Shown here: positions 1,957-14,422 of the stretch, in pieces
Position numbering within the stretch: position 1 is the first letter of the stretch
Layout: each line of letters starts with the position of its first letter
DNA from: a virus
Direction: 5' to 3' (one strand)
Length of the DNA: 21,658 bases
Virus record (IMG/VR): IMGVR_UViG_3300027573_000459
Location: 1-21,658 of that record
Made by a program: the position numbers and the translations under genes
The notes under the pieces: model-generated
The model's database searches: none
Seen by the model: the letters and a program-made list of their open reading frames with translations, nothing else
What the model was told of the DNA's origin: nothing

Positions 1957-3228
1957 CTAAGCAGCAGAAGGAACGTATAGATAGTTCCTACGGTTAACAC
2001 CTTCTACCCTAGTTGAGAGGAAGACCTTGTTGTCGTTCAGAAGCTCCTTGATGATGTCTTGTATCCTCTTCTTGCTCAAACCTTGGTAGATTACGAAATT
2101 GTCTACCACAGCTTCATAGATACAGGGGCCTTCTGCCAGCTTGAGGAGGATAAGGTTCCTTACCTCTTCATCGACGTTTCCTACCTCTACGAAGGTAAGA
2201 GCGCCTCCTTCGACCCTTCGTAGGACGTAACCTACATCTGTGGTAGGGCCGTAGTTCGACTTGAGGATCTTCAGCCGCACGTACTTCTGAGTAGGGTCTA
2301 GCATCATCTTCTCAGCTTCGACCCTCGATACCCCCTCGAGCCCCATAGCCTGACGGGCAAGGTCTTTCAGTACGTGAGAACCAGAGCCAGAGTGTACCGT
2401 CATCTTCTCGTCCTGATGGGGCTTTCTGGTATGGTGCCCTATCAGAAGAGAACACGCCGATAGGTGAGCTACCTTGGATAGAACAGACATGACCTTAGCA
2501 GCATCTACCTGCTTGTTTACGTCTGTACCCTTCGGCATGACCTTGAAGAAAGGGTCGATAATCACAAGATCCTGATTCAAACAGAGGTTGGAGAGTTGCT
2601 CTTCTTCCACGAAGAAATCCGTATCTGTAGAGAGATCGACGTAGGTGAAATTCTTTTCCAGCAGTTCGAGGCGTTCTTTGCCTGGACCCTGCGGCCACCT
2701 GGCGTAGACTGCGGCTTTTACTCTGCGCCGCATTTCATTTTCAGCATCCTCGCAGTTGGATATAAGTATGCGGGCTGGGGCAGGAACGTCCCAGGGACCG
2801 AATGGTTCCCCCAAGGCCAGGGATACACAAAGGCTCATCGACAGGTGACCCTTACCCACGCCGCCCTCTCCTATGAGAAGGGTGACCTCTTCCGCTGGAA
2901 GGCAATGCCTGACTAGCCACTTCACCGGGGGCGGATCTGCCCCGAAGAGTCCCGAGCCGGTAATCCGAGTAAACCGGCTATCTGGAGCCTTAGCTGCGAT
3001 CACGAAGTCCGACTCCAGAATCGTAACCAGTTCGGGCTTGGAGCGAGGGTCTTTCGACCATTCCCAGGCGTCTACGGCGTCCAGAAGGGCCGAGTAGTAG
3101 GCGGCCATATCTGGCTCCCGAGACTTGAGCTGAAACCACTTCTGACGGTAGCCTGCTACTACTTCTGGGGGCTGAGCGAAGTCATCGACACCGAAGTAAG
3201 AAGCAAGCTTCTTCCAATCGGGGGTCAA
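1957..3228 (-). CDS. RepA-like hexameric replicative DNA helicase
   Basis: A 423-aa RecA-fold ATPase of the RepA/AAA_25 type (plasmid RSF1010 RepA-like), which unwinds DNA at the fork. Visible motifs are Walker A G-E-G-G-V-G-K-G (120-127, Lys 126), the acidic E-D at 160-161, Walker B L-V-I-I-D (221-225), and the L-L-I-G-H-H-T-R-K motif (261-269) typical of this family. A C-terminal winged-helix-like part (about 365-423) may serve DNA or partner binding. The N-terminal 100 residues are a family-variable region. Its ATG overlaps the preceding 64-aa gene as ATGA, and it follows a DUF1376-like gene, a pairing seen in phage replication modules. It is the last replication gene before the candidate origin region. 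Confidence 0.85.
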   Translation of the reverse strand: MTPDWKKLASYFGVDDFAQPPEVVAGYRQKWFQLKSREPDMAAYYSALLDAVDAWEWSKDPRSKPELVTILESDFVIAAKAPDSRFTRITGSGLFGADPPPVKWLVRHCLPAEEVTLLIGEGGVGKGHLSMSLCVSLALGEPFGPWDVPAPARILISNCEDAENEMRRRVKAAVYARWPQGPGKERLELLEKNFTYVDLSTDTDFFVEEEQLSNLCLNQDLVIIDPFFKVMPKGTDVNKQVDAAKVMSVLSKVAHLSACSLLIGHHTRKPHQDEKMTVHSGSGSHVLKDLARQAMGLEGVSRVEAEKMMLDPTQKYVRLKILKSNYGPTTDVGYVLRRVEGGALTFVEVGNVDEEVRNLILLKLAEGPCIYEAVVDNFVIYQGLSKKRIQDIIKELLNDNKVFLSTRVEGVNRRNYLYVPSAA

Positions 3229-4115: not shown

Positions 4116-5012
4116 ATGGCTAGGAAAAAGGACATCTCCGCGATAACCCAGCTCAAGGATGAGGAGCTAGACCAGCTCATCCGAAAGGGCATGGAGAAGC
4201 AGCAGGCCACGAAGAAGCGGAATGCTTACATGGCCTTCGCTCCGATGGGCTATCAGGAGCGGTGGTTTGCCAGCACGAAGAAGATGCTGATTCTCCTGGC
4301 TGGGAACCAGACAGGGAAGACGACATGCGGAGCGATCAGAACGATCAAAGCATGCGTAGGGTACTGGCCTTTCTCGATTGGAGGCGAAGCGAAGCCAGAG
4401 TTTCAGGATCTCCGAGGGATAAGGTGCCTAGTCGCTGGGGAGTCCTACTCGACCTCGATTCCAAGCGCCATCCTGCCGAAGCTGAAAGAGTTTATCAGCG
4501 CAGAGATGCTGCTCGGGCCTCCAAAGAAGCATGGCTCTACTGGCATGGAGTCGGTGTTCAAGTTCGTCACTGGGGCAGAGTTGCACGTAATGAGCTACGA
4601 GCAGGGCTCAGACGCCTACGAGGGCTCCCTGTGGAACCACGTATGGCTAGACGAACCTCCTCCAGAGTCGGTATTCAACGCGATACGCAGAGGAACGCTC
4701 GCAACCAACGGAAACATCGTTATCACGGCAACGCCTCTGAAGGAGCCGTGGATGTATGACAACCTCTGTATACCCGCGCTCGATCCTAGAAGTGCTCTAT
4801 ACGGAACTGCAGACATCGAACGGTGTAACATTCACGACAATTGCATGGAGTGCAATAACGGCGCTCTTCCTCATAGGGAGATTATGGCATATCTGGAGAC
4901 GCTCTCCCCCAAGGAACGTGCAGCCAGAGAGAAAGGGGAGTTCTCCGACCTCTCAGGACTCGAATTCACGGAGTACAACGAGGTAATTCACGTCGTGGAC
5001 GACTTCATATGA
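4116..5012 (+). CDS. Terminase large subunit, ATPase domain (separate N-terminal cistron)
   Basis: A 298-aa ATPase half of a phage DNA-packaging motor. It has Walker A A-G-N-Q-T-G-K-T (62-69), Walker B V-W-L-D-E (176-180) with the catalytic Glu at 180, and the coupling motif T-A-T-P (204-207). It ends with E-Y-N-E-V-I-H-V-V-D-D-F-I, which in undivided terminases is the linker into the nuclease domain. No nuclease residues follow; translation stops at 5012, overlapping the next ATG as ATGA. The nuclease domain appears as its own cistron 317 bp downstream. The product should work with that cistron's product and the portal (6395-8419) at the procapsid vertex. Confidence 0.9.
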   Translation: MARKKDISAITQLKDEELDQLIRKGMEKQQATKKRNAYMAFAPMGYQERWFASTKKMLILLAGNQTGKTTCGAIRTIKACVGYWPFSIGGEAKPEFQDLRGIRCLVAGESYSTSIPSAILPKLKEFISAEMLLGPPKKHGSTGMESVFKFVTGAELHVMSYEQGSDAYEGSLWNHVWLDEPPPESVFNAIRRGTLATNGNIVITATPLKEPWMYDNLCIPALDPRSALYGTADIERCNIHDNCMECNNGALPHREIMAYLETLSPKERAAREKGEFSDLSGLEFTEYNEVIHVVDDFI

Positions 5013-5344
5013 GCAAAAACGGCAAAAAGGAGGGATTTACCCGCCAAGAGCTAGCAGGAGTACGAGAAGCAGAGCCAGCATCCATCAGAAAACGCACACT
5101 TCTCCCAAATGAGCCCTGGAAACTGTTCGAAAACTTCTGCCACATCATCCAAAAGCAGGATATAGAGGTCATTACAGGGCAAATTGCGATGCGTCCTGAT
5201 GGAGAGCGAGCTGTCGTCTACATGCGCCTGAAAAAGAAGATAACAGGGGCAGATCGGACGTTTTCGGCGGTGGGTGAGCCCCGAAAGCTCCAAGAGATGG
5301 TAGACGAGGTGATGAGAAACGTCATCACATGGATGGAAAACTAG
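5009..5344 (+). CDS. Unrecognised protein inserted between the terminase halves
   Basis: A 111-aa protein that I cannot assign. It has a basic, polar N-terminus (residues 1-30), then an alpha/beta-looking core with a helix (K-L-F-E-N-F-C-H-I-I), two strands around D-I-E-V-I-T-G-Q-I-A-M and R-A-V-V-Y-M-R-L-K-K-K-I, and a C-terminal helix. No HNH, GIY-YIG or LAGLIDADG motif is seen. The start overlaps the ATPase stop (ATGA) with no clear Shine-Dalgarno, so translation is probably coupled. The stop TAG overlaps the nuclease cistron. It might be a terminase partner that bridges the halves, a small terminase, or an unrelated gene insertion. Confidence 0.7.
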   Translation: MSKNGKKEGFTRQELAGVREAEPASIRKRTLLPNEPWKLFENFCHIIQKQDIEVITGQIAMRPDGERAVVYMRLKKKITGADRTFSAVGEPRKLQEMVDEVMRNVITWMEN

Positions 5345-6060
5345 TGATTCCTAACGGCCAGGCCAAGGAATGGCCCTATGTCGAGGTCATCGACCCGAGT
5401 TATAAGCGAGGACTCCATGTTATCTGGGCGAAAATTGACCCTCAAGACTACTTCTACATCGTCCGAGCCCGAAACATCGAGGACGGACCCTTCTCTACCA
5501 TGTGCCGAGACATACAGTTGGAACGTCGATCCCTCGGCCATGAGCCCGAACTTGCTATCATGGATGCGCGGGGAGGACGACTTACTGTCAACAAGGACCT
5601 TGAGCAGGATTGGTTTGATAGATTTAGAGACTATGGGCTTCACTATCAGCCCTCGGTGGAGACGGACCTAAAGAAGCTCCACGACTGGCTGAAGCCGGTC
5701 TACGACCCGAGGCACGATAAAGCCCTACCGAAGCTGAGAATATGTCGAAGCGTCGCCAATATGGAAAAAGGGCCAGTATGGGCCATCAAGAGGTTTACGT
5801 GGAACCCGTTGGACAGCCGGACGAAGCAGTACGAGCAAGCAGGGAAGGACTGGATCGACGTAATGCGCTACCTGGCCGGATATCCGGGCCTCAAGTACGA
5901 TCGGTTCCGCCAGCCCGAGGAGCTGATGATGAGCCCGCAGTCGATAGCGAGCAGCTACGCGCGGCCTCAGATCAACATGCATCAGCACCATTTCAGCGAC
6001 AGGATGGTGGGCCGCAGGCAGCCATTCCACCCGTACGGCCAGAAATACCGCCCGAGGTGA
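5329..6060 (+). CDS. Terminase large subunit, RNase H-like nuclease domain (separate C-terminal cistron)
   Basis: A 243-aa protein starting with the linker I-P-N-G-Q and then the nuclease fold. The first metal Asp lies in V-I-D-P-S-Y (Asp 22), the second in A-I-M-D-A-R-G-G (Asp 79) and the third in K-D-W-I-D-V-M-R-Y-L (Asp 174 or 177), the usual order for packaging nucleases that cut the concatemer. ATG 5329 overlaps the previous gene by 16 bases. GTG 5344, overlapping its stop as TAGTG and preceded by GGA, is an equally good start and gives a protein beginning V-I-P-N-G-Q. The last 45 residues are a Gln/His/Pro-rich tail. The summed length of both halves (about 536 aa) is that of a normal large terminase. 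Confidence 0.85.
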   Translation: MDGKLVIPNGQAKEWPYVEVIDPSYKRGLHVIWAKIDPQDYFYIVRARNIEDGPFSTMCRDIQLERRSLGHEPELAIMDARGGRLTVNKDLEQDWFDRFRDYGLHYQPSVETDLKKLHDWLKPVYDPRHDKALPKLRICRSVANMEKGPVWAIKRFTWNPLDSRTKQYEQAGKDWIDVMRYLAGYPGLKYDRFRQPEELMMSPQSIASSYARPQINMHQHHFSDRMVGRRQPFHPYGQKYRPR

Positions 6061-6398
6061 TTCAGGCTTTCGAGAACCTACAGGCCGAGGTTGCGTTTCT
6101 CCGCGACATCGTGAATAACCCGGAGAAGGTCAGGGATCTGGCCGAGCGGCACGGCTTATTCAAGGTTCACCAGCAAACCTTTAATTTGGATCAGGCTGTT
6201 GAGATAGGCTTAGCAGTAGCCAAGGTACTAGGAAACACAGTACCGATGATTCAGCCTACCCCAGTTGCAGAGCAACCACGGGCAAGTTTGCCCGCAGGGT
6301 CTAGGATCGCTCCAGAGGAGCACCAGCCCCTCCGAGCCCCGCCCCCTGGCAACCTCGGACCGCTAGAGGCAGCCTTGCGTAGAGGTTATACCGGATGA
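6057..6398 (+). CDS. Hypothetical protein between terminase and portal
   Basis: A 113-aa protein, not recognised. The open frame extends upstream to 5742, but that part merely shadows the nuclease gene. GTG 6057, which overlaps the nuclease stop as GTGA, is the sensible start, although no strong Shine-Dalgarno precedes it. Residues 1-35 are a probable coiled-coil helix (AFENLQAEVAFLRDIV). A second helix around F-N-L-D-Q-A-V-E-I-G-L follows, then a disordered Pro/Ala/Arg-rich tail. That tail contains palindrome copy 4, read as R-A-S-L-P-A at 75-80. It ends in an ATGA overlap with the portal start. Confidence 0.65.
   Translation: MIQAFENLQAEVAFLRDIVNNPEKVRDLAERHGLFKVHQQTFNLDQAVEIGLAVAKVLGNTVPMIQPTPVAEQPRASLPAGSRIAPEEHQPLRAPPPGNLGPLEAALRRGYTG
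6280..6293. repeat. Dispersed palindrome copy 4 (GGGCAA-GT-TTGCCC)
   Basis: Flanking C and G extend it to 16 bp (6279-6294). It lies in the disordered tail of the 113-aa gene. Confidence 0.9.
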
Positions 6399-8419
6399 TC
6401 CCGTTTGCCGACGACATCACCGGGATGCCGGGTCTGGACGCATCCATCACGAACCCGTTTCCGCAGCCTACGTGGATGCAGAACCAGATGTCGCCGGAGC
6501 TGGCGGGGGTAGTCGACTACGAAGCAGGCAGCGCCCTCTCCAAGGACGACATCATCAGGCAGATCAACGAGGCCAGGGACGAAGCGTATAACGCCAGGCA
6601 GACCAAAGAAGACGAGTGGAAGCTCTACATAGACCTGTACAACAACGTACAGGACTTCTCCCAGAAGGCTGACTGGCAAGCTAAGATCTTCATTCCTGAG
6701 ATCTTCAACAAGGTCGAGCGGGCCAAGAACATGATTGAAGGGGCGCTCTTAAGTGCGCCGGAGTGGTTTACGCTAGAGCAGCTCCCTAAGTTCGATCCTA
6801 ACACCCAGAACGTAACCTTTATCGAGAAGGTACTGAGATACGAACTCGAAAAGGCCAAGTTCATCGACGAGTATACCAAGTGCCTGGAGGAGGCTTTCAT
6901 TCTCGGCACGTCCTACCTGAAGATCTGGTGGGACGAGTGGATTGAGCGGAAGCCCCAGGTAACGCAAGTGCCCGTGGGTATGGACCCCATGACTGGGATG
7001 CCATTCATGGACCCGATGACGGGCATGCCCATGATGCAGCCGGTAGTCTCGTCCCAGCCCAAGAAGACTTCAGGGCTTAGGGTTAAGCATACCCCTGCCT
7101 GGGCGATGTTTCCCGACCCCTTCGCGTCCAACTTCTATGAGGGGCGCTATGTTGTGGAAGAGTGTGCGGTGGATCGGGACTACATCGAGGAGGGTGTACG
7201 CACGGGTATGTTCGATTCCGCAGAGGATATCGGACCCCCTGTCTCTTGGGAACTCGAAATCGAGTACGGGCAGCGTGACACACGTATGGACCGAAACGCT
7301 TCACGTACCACACGGAAGCGAGATCTACTCCGTATCTATCACGGGAACTTCTACTCTCACGATGGTAAGCTTGCTCTGCAGAACTGGCGAGCGATTGTCT
7401 GCAACAACAGAGCACTCCTCGCCTTTGGTCCCAATACAATTTACACTGGAAAATGGCCATATATCTCTTGCACGCCTATTCCGGTGCGAGGGACAAGCCT
7501 CGGCCGGTCGCTGGTATATGCGGCGGCCCCCATCCAGTACGAGCTGAACAATCTATGCAACCTGATGATAGACAGTACAGCGTACTCTGTCTTGCCTGCT
7601 GCTATCAAGGATGCGGACAAGTCGGACTCTCCTGTCAACATCACTACGATTACCCCTGGAACGGTGTACAACGGGCGGGAGGGGATGCTGATTCCCCTGA
7701 AGATCACCAGCGCCCCGAACGACGCCTGGCCGATGATCCAGTGGCTAGAGAGCAAGATCGACGACAGCACTGGCATCAACGAGTTCATGGAGGGGACGCC
7801 CACCACAAAAGGGCGACCTACCGCTTACGAGATTCGAGCGAAGACAGGAGTCGGGCAGGAGCAGATCAACAACCTAGCCAAGGATCTCGAACGGCGAGAC
7901 TTGGAACCAGCGGTACAGTTGGTGTACGACCTGACGCTGCAGTTCCTGTCCGACTTCTCTGATCCTGAGCTTCAGGCGATCGTGCAGCAGGAGATGGGTC
8001 CACAGGCTCTGATGGACCCGATGACGCGATACTCGATGCTGGACGCCACGTTCAAGGTGAGAGCGCGTGGCATCAGCATGGTCCTTACCCGCGAGGAGCA
8101 GAGCCAGAAGCTGATGGAGCTTAGCCAGATGGGCATGAGCATCGGCCTACCTCCGGCGAACATGCTCCAGATCTTCTACAAGACGGCACAGAGCATGGGT
8201 GTAGACCCGAGAGAGCTAGGCTACCCAGAGACGCAGCAAGAGCTACAGATGATGCTGATGCAGATGCAGGCACAACAGGCTGCGGGGGGAGCCGGGGCCG
8301 GTCCGGGTGGTAAGCCAGAGGCGGCTAACTCGGGAGGCCCACAGCCCAACGGTGCCCCCTCGCAGCCCCCTTCGGCGGAGCAGAACATTGGACAAGTTGA
8401 AGGCTCTGGCGGCTACTAG
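6395..8419 (+). CDS. Portal protein (podovirus type)
   Basis: A 674-aa head-tail connector forming the ring through which DNA is packaged and ejected. Size, position after terminase and content fit the P22/T7-like portal group: helical N-terminal wing (55-170, with DEWKLYIDLYN, WQAKIFIPEIFNKVE, ALLSAPEWF), a G-T-S-Y-L-K-I-W-W-D strand, a middle domain, the A-A-P-I-Q-Y-E-L-N-N-L segment and a crown-like region with G-I-N-E-F-M-E-G. An insertion carries the tandem nonapeptide repeat M-D-P-M-T-G-M-P-F / M-D-P-M-T-G-M-P-M at 196-213. The last 80 residues are a Gln/Met-rich helix followed by a disordered Gly/Pro/Ala tail. The start overlaps the preceding stop as ATGA. Confidence 0.88.
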   Translation: MIPFADDITGMPGLDASITNPFPQPTWMQNQMSPELAGVVDYEAGSALSKDDIIRQINEARDEAYNARQTKEDEWKLYIDLYNNVQDFSQKADWQAKIFIPEIFNKVERAKNMIEGALLSAPEWFTLEQLPKFDPNTQNVTFIEKVLRYELEKAKFIDEYTKCLEEAFILGTSYLKIWWDEWIERKPQVTQVPVGMDPMTGMPFMDPMTGMPMMQPVVSSQPKKTSGLRVKHTPAWAMFPDPFASNFYEGRYVVEECAVDRDYIEEGVRTGMFDSAEDIGPPVSWELEIEYGQRDTRMDRNASRTTRKRDLLRIYHGNFYSHDGKLALQNWRAIVCNNRALLAFGPNTIYTGKWPYISCTPIPVRGTSLGRSLVYAAAPIQYELNNLCNLMIDSTAYSVLPAAIKDADKSDSPVNITTITPGTVYNGREGMLIPLKITSAPNDAWPMIQWLESKIDDSTGINEFMEGTPTTKGRPTAYEIRAKTGVGQEQINNLAKDLERRDLEPAVQLVYDLTLQFLSDFSDPELQAIVQQEMGPQALMDPMTRYSMLDATFKVRARGISMVLTREEQSQKLMELSQMGMSIGLPPANMLQIFYKTAQSMGVDPRELGYPETQQELQMMLMQMQAQQAAGGAGAGPGGKPEAANSGGPQPNGAPSQPPSAEQNIGQVEGSGGY

Positions 8420-8819
8420 GATTATAGCGAGTTTAGCAGGTTTAGCCCTTTGGGCTAAACTCGCTAATGCTCAGTCTCCTGACAACAGCAGGGGCTATCC
8501 AGACGAGGTACAGGAGTTCCAGGGGCAGTATCCGGCTGGAAGGACGGTTACGTGCGGAACCGGAAGTACGCTGATCTCGACCGGAAACAGTTGGAACAGC
8601 ATCACTTTCCGAAGCAAAAACACGACAAACACGGTCTACGTCTGCTTAACCCGGTACCTCGGCGAGGGCCAAAACCCGTCGACCTGTTCGGCTTCAGCCG
8701 CCTTTGCCATGCTGGACGCATCACTCCCTGCCTATACTGCCGACAGGGCGCTGTATAGGGTAGGGTTTACCTGCATAGCGTCTTCAAGCACGGACATCGT
8801 GATCCACGAGGAGAAGTAG
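8388..8819 (+). CDS. Secreted small beta-rich protein with Sec signal
   Basis: A 143-aa protein if it starts at TTG 8388, with GGAG 7 bases upstream; the gene then overlaps the portal end by 32 bp. This start gives a textbook Sec signal: Lys 3 and 5, Arg 11, hydrophobic core 12-23, and cleavage after A-N-A (28). The mature part looks beta-rich and carries four cysteines (56, 86, 100, 129), consistent with two disulfides. It ends in a strand pattern (VGFTCIASSSTDIVIHEE) seen in small virion beta-sandwich proteins. The longer frame to 8307 reads through the portal and removes the signal. A stem-loop switch lies in the signal-peptide coding region. Function is unknown; a signal peptide on a gene next to the portal is unusual. 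Confidence 0.65.
   Translation: MDKLKALAATRIIASLAGLALWAKLANAQSPDNSRGYPDEVQEFQGQYPAGRTVTCGTGSTLISTGNSWNSITFRSKNTTNTVYVCLTRYLGEGQNPSTCSASAAFAMLDASLPAYTADRALYRVGFTCIASSSTDIVIHEEK
8425..8466 (+). promoter_or_regulatory. Two mutually exclusive hairpins over the signal-peptide codons
   Basis: Two copies of GTTTAGC (8431-8437 and 8440-8446) compete for one inverted GCTAAAC (8454-8460). Form A is a 13-bp stem, 8425-8437 with 8454-8466. Form B is a perfect 9-bp stem, 8440-8448 with 8452-8460, around a TTT loop. It begins 6 bp after the portal stop and 37 bp into the 8388 gene. No T-run follows, so RNA processing or translational control is likelier than termination. Confidence 0.5.
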
Positions 8820-13399: not shown

Positions 13400-14422
13400 T
13401 TGGCAGGACAGGTTTGGTACTCCAACGAGTACGGAGGCTATTGGTCTAACCAAGAGTTGAGCATGGATATGTATGTCCAGGCTCAGCCCATCATGCGTTT
13501 CCGGCAGTTTACGGAGCGTGATGAAAACTTCGGGGCCAACCGTGGTAACACGTTGCTGTTCGACAAGAACTTCAATGTGGATACGGAAGGTGGTCCTCTT
13601 AACGAGAACCAGCCGTTCCCGAAGACTGGTTATCGGACCAAGCAGGGCTCTGTTGTCGCGACGGAGTACGGAAACTCTATCCCGTACACGGAGAAGCTGG
13701 AGCGGCTTAGCAAGTTCAATCTAAGCGACAACACTCACCGCGCGATCATCAACGACATGGCGAAGACCATGAATCGTGCGGCCCATGCTCCGTGGCCCAA
13801 CACCAAGATCTACTACACCCCCAAGGGCACCACGACTCCTTCCTTCTACTGGAAGGTCCAGACCGGCAACGTCACAGATCAGGCAGCGACGCGAAGCATC
13901 GGCGTTACCGACCTGATCGCACTTCGTGAGGCGCTCGCATCGGGCGTCTACATCACGACCTTCTCTGCGGTTGCCACCACGGCGACCGCATCGCCTGTTC
14001 CCCCGTACGACGACGACGGGAACTACATGATCCTCACGTCGGTGGGCGGTGCCTCTGCCCTGAGACGTGACTCCGACTTCATCAACGCGGCTCTGTACGG
14101 CGATCCCGAGCGGCTGTTCGCGGGTGAGATCGGCCGATTCCACGGCTTCCGCATCGTGGAAGAGAACCACATCCTCTCCAACTTCCTAGGTACCACCGAG
14201 TTCAAGGCAGAGATGTATGCCTTTGGTACCGAGGTTGTGAAGGAGATCGTGATTCTCCCTGAAGAGATCCGGCGAGGTGTTCCTCTCGACGGTGGCCGAG
14301 ACAAGGCGTTTTACTGGTACGGTATCGTAGGGTTCGGGCTGATCTGGTCCTTCAACGGGACTGTAGGCGACGTGAGCAACTACGAGCCTGAGAACCGCGC
14401 AGTGCGCGTCTGGAGCACCTGA
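13400..14422 (+). CDS. Major capsid protein (HK97-fold coat)
   Basis: A 340-aa protein whose size, position after the scaffold-like gene and sequence style fit the podovirus coat group. It has an N-terminal Y-G-G-Y-W-S-N-Q-E-L segment, A-Q-P-I-M-R-F-R-Q-F, a G-N-T-L-L-F-D-K strand, E-Y-G-N-S-I-P-Y-T-E-K-L (spine-helix entry), then the peripheral domain, and near the end a G-R-F-H-G-F-R-I-V-E-E-N-H segment. Coat proteins of this group form the icosahedral shell. TTG 13400 is the first possible start after an in-frame stop at 13391. It retains the aromatic N-terminus, whereas the next ATG (13463) would delete 21 residues. A non-AUG start for the most abundant virion protein is notable. Confidence 0.85.
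   Translation: MAGQVWYSNEYGGYWSNQELSMDMYVQAQPIMRFRQFTERDENFGANRGNTLLFDKNFNVDTEGGPLNENQPFPKTGYRTKQGSVVATEYGNSIPYTEKLERLSKFNLSDNTHRAIINDMAKTMNRAAHAPWPNTKIYYTPKGTTTPSFYWKVQTGNVTDQAATRSIGVTDLIALREALASGVYITTFSAVATTATASPVPPYDDDGNYMILTSVGGASALRRDSDFINAALYGDPERLFAGEIGRFHGFRIVEENHILSNFLGTTEFKAEMYAFGTEVVKEIVILPEEIRRGVPLDGGRDKAFYWYGIVGFGLIWSFNGTVGDVSNYEPENRAVRVWST

Follow-up and report, generated by a model that had tools for sequence, protein, structure and literature searches.

A phage large terminase gene divided at its ATPase–nuclease hinge around a small overlapping gene

In a 21,658-nt stretch of viral DNA (positions 1 to 21,658 of record IMGVR_UViG_3300027573_000459; hereafter, the window), we found that the large terminase (TerL) is encoded by two separate reading frames with a third gene lying between them. 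Three open reading frames on the plus strand, each in a different frame, make up the locus: TerL-N, the 298-aa ATPase half (4116–5012); a gene for a 111-aa protein (5009–5344); and TerL-C, the RNase H-like nuclease half, which comprises 243 aa from ATG 5329 (5329–6060). No Terminase_6-type TerL is encoded here as one polypeptide, and the locus is a split TerL rather than an ordinary one. The most probable reading is that TerL underwent insertional fission and that its subunits, coupled in translation, rejoin non-covalently, with the 111-aa protein perhaps at the joint.

Both halves are recognizable as parts of a terminase. TerL-N matched Terminase_6N (PF03237; E = 1.2e-10, 41.8 bits against a cut-off of 22) and PHROG 2, the terminase large subunit family (8.5e-14). 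Walker A (GNQTGKTT), Walker B (VWLDEPPP) and motif III (TATPL) are all present, in keeping with a P-loop ATPase and with an earlier note on this DNA, which had placed Walker A, Walker B and the coupling motif in 4116–5012. TerL-C alone matched no library profile in Pfam, PHROGs or NCBIfam. Against a TerL profile of 475 positions, built from 14 single-chain relatives, it scored 11.9 bits, a value reached by none of 5000 shuffles of TerL-C. Pair alignment with the TerL of an uncut relative (L022) aligned Asp22, Asp79 and Asp177 of TerL-C with the acidic residues of the nuclease, and the surrounding KD-ID--RYLA motif was conserved, which bears out the three nuclease Asp motifs previously read in 5329–6060. 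The profile, the shuffles and the Asp alignment identify TerL-C as a nuclease with three acidic residues; the mean pLDDT of its AlphaFold model is low, at 41.5. The strand order of that model (beta-beta-beta-alpha-beta) is compatible with an RNase H-like nuclease, as are its structural matches (RuvC, RNase T, Argonaute and the D6E and P22 terminases), and both lend this assignment mild support.

We then located the cut on the TerL profile. TerL-N covers positions 7–278 and TerL-C positions 280–457 of the 475, and the two halves joined together scored 168 bits as one uninterrupted domain, without gap, overlap or duplication; the 111-aa protein gave no score against the profile. Given this coverage and the intact motifs, the chain is cut exactly at the ATPase/nuclease hinge, where the C-terminus of TerL-N (HVVDDFI) falls, and nothing has been lost. 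The earlier proposal that a gene sits where the chain can be cut is supported in that a coding gene lies at this hinge.

Comparison with other viruses gave a uniform picture of uncut terminases. Single-chain TerLs from seven phage records and seven IMG/VR loci, 22–33% identical to the split TerL, have no domain at the hinge, and every TerL of other viruses that we examined at full length is one chain. The TerLs of Arthrobacter phage Jasmine, Manatee Spring phage ct7ZZ929 and the loci L018, L022, L026 and L027 are homologous over both halves, but each is one continuous frame, unlike the window terL. The alignment with unsplit relatives proposed in the earlier note thus showed chains that run through the hinge uninterrupted and carry no domain there. 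That note had also named two findings that would speak against a split, close relatives with a continuous frame and a 111-aa region aligning as an internal terminase domain; the uncut relatives are distant, at 22–33% identity, and none has such a domain.

The junctions are tight on both sides. The frames are separated by the stops TGA 5010–5012 and TAG 5342–5344; the 111-aa frame starts within the stop of TerL-N (ATGA), and its own stop overlaps GTG 5344, which continues the TerL-C frame (TAGTG). TerL-C may start at this GTG, or at ATG 5329, 15 nt upstream, which would give an overlap of 16 nt. The third frame and the ATGA overlap stand as first described, whereas the TAG/ATG overlap claimed for the second junction is corrected to either ATG 5329 or TAGTG. 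The protein ends were read correctly, H-V-V-D-D-F-I closing the first half and V-I-P-N-G-Q opening the second, the latter with the GTG 5344 start. The ribosome-binding sites of the two internal starts appear weak, which counts against coupled cistrons. Both junctions are −1 steps relative to the preceding frame, as would be expected if a pair of programmed frameshifts (or of assembly errors) concealed a single chain of ~650 aa with an alpha-beta-beta-beta-alpha domain at the hinge. We consider this unlikely: ordinary ATGA and TAGTG overlaps also produce a −1 step, neither junction has an X XXY YYZ heptamer nearby, and no TerL examined at full length carries such a hinge insert. Errors would have to comprise two independent indels to merge the three frames, and two records agree base for base (see below).

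Coding statistics, an open-frame control and structure prediction all bear on the middle gene, which is a coding gene. Its codon usage is that of real genes in the window, its frame scored clearly better than its other frames, and a fully open frame of 336 nt arose by chance in 62 of 3000 shuffles (about 2%). Its GC content (0.50) and GC3 (0.57) are low beside those of the TerL halves (0.54–0.56 and 0.68–0.70, respectively), yet inside the range of other window genes, and the label "foreign" given to it earlier is unsupported. We found no sequence relatives of the 111-aa protein in Pfam, PHROGs, NCBIfam, IMG/VR, or phage or plasmid records. From the single sequence, AlphaFold modeled a disordered N-terminus followed by an alpha-beta-beta-beta-alpha core (helix, three strands, helix), with ten-residue blocks across residues 41–110 at pLDDT 87–95. 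The nearest solved structures were ribosome hibernation factors of the HPF/YfiA type (Z 7–9, up to 9.2), followed by T7 Gp1.2 (Z 8) and dsRBDs (Z about 6–7); in Foldseek searches against the PDB, the nearest E-values exceeded 0.01 and none fell below 0.001. No convincing sequence match linked the protein to HPF/YfiA, dsRBD or T7 Gp1.2-like proteins. The modeled core is a common small arrangement from which no function follows.

Small genes also adjoin terL in other viruses. In the nearest single-chain relatives, a conserved 82-aa gene lies directly downstream of terL (L018 1617–1865, L026 5528–5776, L027 3017–3265), before the next large gene, which is probably the portal gene. As candidate counterparts of the middle gene we rejected the small genes beside terL in relatives, the alignments being at chance level or, for the 82-aa gene, borderline (about 5–10% of shuffles were as good).

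Phage genes cut in two without splicing are already known (PMC2988022). In Aeh1 nrdA/mobE, T4 gene 60/mobA and gp43A/43B of phages 25 and 44RR, an enzyme gene is divided by a gene or spacer and the polypeptides rejoin unspliced; the inserts are homing endonucleases or untranslated spacer. The window differs in that the insert encodes a protein without endonuclease signature that overlaps both halves, and in that the host gene encodes a packaging motor. The middle gene was considered as a homing endonuclease and rejected, there being no Pfam, PHROG or NCBIfam match and the core fold being alpha-beta-beta-beta-alpha; it does not look like a homing endonuclease gene of the kind that defines the Aeh1 nrdA/mobE type. 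No homing endonuclease was noted among the structural neighbors listed for its model, and none was recognized among 20 larger ORFs scanned in the rest of a 43-kb record containing the same locus. The suggestion of a former homing element accordingly found no backing, neither in the fold nor in any endonuclease, intein or intron signature.

Interruption of terL is likewise known, inteins and introns in this gene being well documented (PMC10448857, PMC3322345, PMC3853055), and in ICP1, Marshall, IBB_35 and Mic1 such elements interrupt TerL but splicing restores one chain. A self-splicing intron spanning 5009–5344 or nearby, with the 111-aa frame inside it, would similarly allow TerL to be made as one chain. 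We regard this as very improbable. No splicing element of the ICP1/Marshall/IBB_35/Mic1 kind was found at the window terL: Rfam gave no match, and hence no intron core, over 4800–5500 at E up to 5, and none in the whole window at gathering thresholds. Moreover, the region is coding throughout, and since its start is fused to the stop of TerL-N and its stop to the start of TerL-C, no ribozyme-only sequence could be accommodated. Intein ends were not apparent by eye (TerL-N ends DDFI-stop and TerL-C starts VIPN), and Pfam and NCBIfam contained no intein match. Thus, split phage genes and interrupted terL genes have precedents; the open-licence papers searched described no terL divided at the hinge into two cistrons that stay unspliced and flank a non-endonuclease gene.

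The same locus occurs in a second record, IMGVR_UViG_3300009678_000085 (43,345 bp), which does not differ from the window anywhere between position 3 and the window's end. It contains one TerL match only, and the split terL is therefore the only TerL candidate there. As both records may derive from a single sampling, their identity excludes little beyond a private assembly error, and this leaves some room for an assembly chimera or error that put other DNA inside terL. Such an origin is very unlikely, as tight coupling overlaps lie on both sides, the insert sits precisely at the hinge, where TerL residues are neither missing nor duplicated, and its composition is within the genome range. IMG/VR scans with the N, C, middle and portal proteins returned only the identical record, and pair alignments used as search queries returned distant, uncut TerLs or nothing new. 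The GTDB genome collection held no relative; in the plasmid collection, TerL-N matched only distant terminases and the middle gene matched nothing. No relative sharing the split was present in the collections searched, and as far as these reach the split appears private to this lineage. Because the relatives are only 22–33% identical, the split cannot be dated, and because none shares it, its conservation cannot be shown, which counts against fission into coupled subunits.

The surroundings are those of a tailed-phage head module. A portal protein gene (SU10-type; 6395–8419, plus strand; PF23899, 5.1e-22) follows as the downstream neighbor expected in a packaging module, and a major capsid protein (13400–14422, plus strand; PHROG 1357, 7.9e-12) marks the window as such a head module; the latter shows 32% identity to proteins from cultured phages of Vibrio and Escherichia, one of which carries the annotation major capsid protein. 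The closest matches of the portal are to cyanophages (21–23%) and those of the capsid protein to the Vibrio/Escherichia phages (32%), differing affinities that suggest a mosaic or very divergent lineage. A 218-aa frame (5742–6398) without family matches in Pfam or PHROGs shares 319 bases with the 3′ end of TerL-C, which it reads in a different frame, and runs to the start of the portal gene. On the minus strand, a RepA/primase-helicase-like P-loop ATPase gene (1957–3228; PHROG 906, 2597 and 239) is divergent from the packaging module. Beyond the window, positions 6121–8520 of the 43-kb record (L006) encode a MoxR-like AAA_5 ATPase (1.3e-14) and, after it, a 496-aa protein that matched nothing in Pfam.

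We infer the following course for the fission of TerL. An ancestral single-chain terL would have been split at the hinge upon the arrival of a small gene at that place. Translation of the three cistrons would proceed in turn by termination-reinitiation (at ATGA and TAGTG), a coupling that may keep the stoichiometry of the halves, as the earlier note proposed. The ATPase and nuclease subunits would rejoin non-covalently into a motor on the portal, their interface substituting for the covalent hinge. The 111-aa protein may lie at this joint and bridge the halves, or it may be a passenger serving a separate function. Two lines of published work support non-covalent reassembly: the T4 gp17 domains share a complementary surface of >1000 square angstroms (PMC3012670), and split phage enzymes can work, Aeh1 nrdA split by mobE giving a fully functional enzyme and split gp43A/gp43B co-purifying with polymerase activity (PMC2988022). 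Counting against a working split motor, the hinge is described as essential in T4: gp17 cut at the linker keeps its ATPase and nuclease activities, but DNA translocation is abolished (PMC3012670, PMC9958956). That cut (Kanamaru 2004, as cited in PMC3012670) has the same ATPase/nuclease position; as described there, it is artificial and translocation-inactive, whereas the split in the window occurs naturally, and no other TerL is apparently present in the record.

The loss of translocation in T4 also speaks for a terminase in decay, belonging to a defective or satellite-like element that another virus packages, as does a nuclease half so diverged that it has no library match. Against this stand two open halves, intact motifs and a normal head module downstream, and we judge decay decidedly unlikely. 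Double frameshifting, splicing, artefact and decay are each less well supported than coupled cistrons. Whether fission has gone so far that separate ATPase and nuclease subunits operate with a third phage protein replacing the hinge, which would then not be obligatory for translocation, is a more doubtful matter, and we advance it tentatively.

In models of the packaging motor, the ATPase/nuclease hinge is part of the force-coupling path. Since T4 loses translocation when the hinge is cut, a natural cut at this place directly tests such models. If the split motor works, it challenges the T4 evidence that DNA pumping requires linked halves, and a phage that survives with its terminase so divided would demonstrate that a third protein or a non-covalent joint can take the place of the hinge. 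Such a phage would be a natural system for the separate study of both TerL domains.
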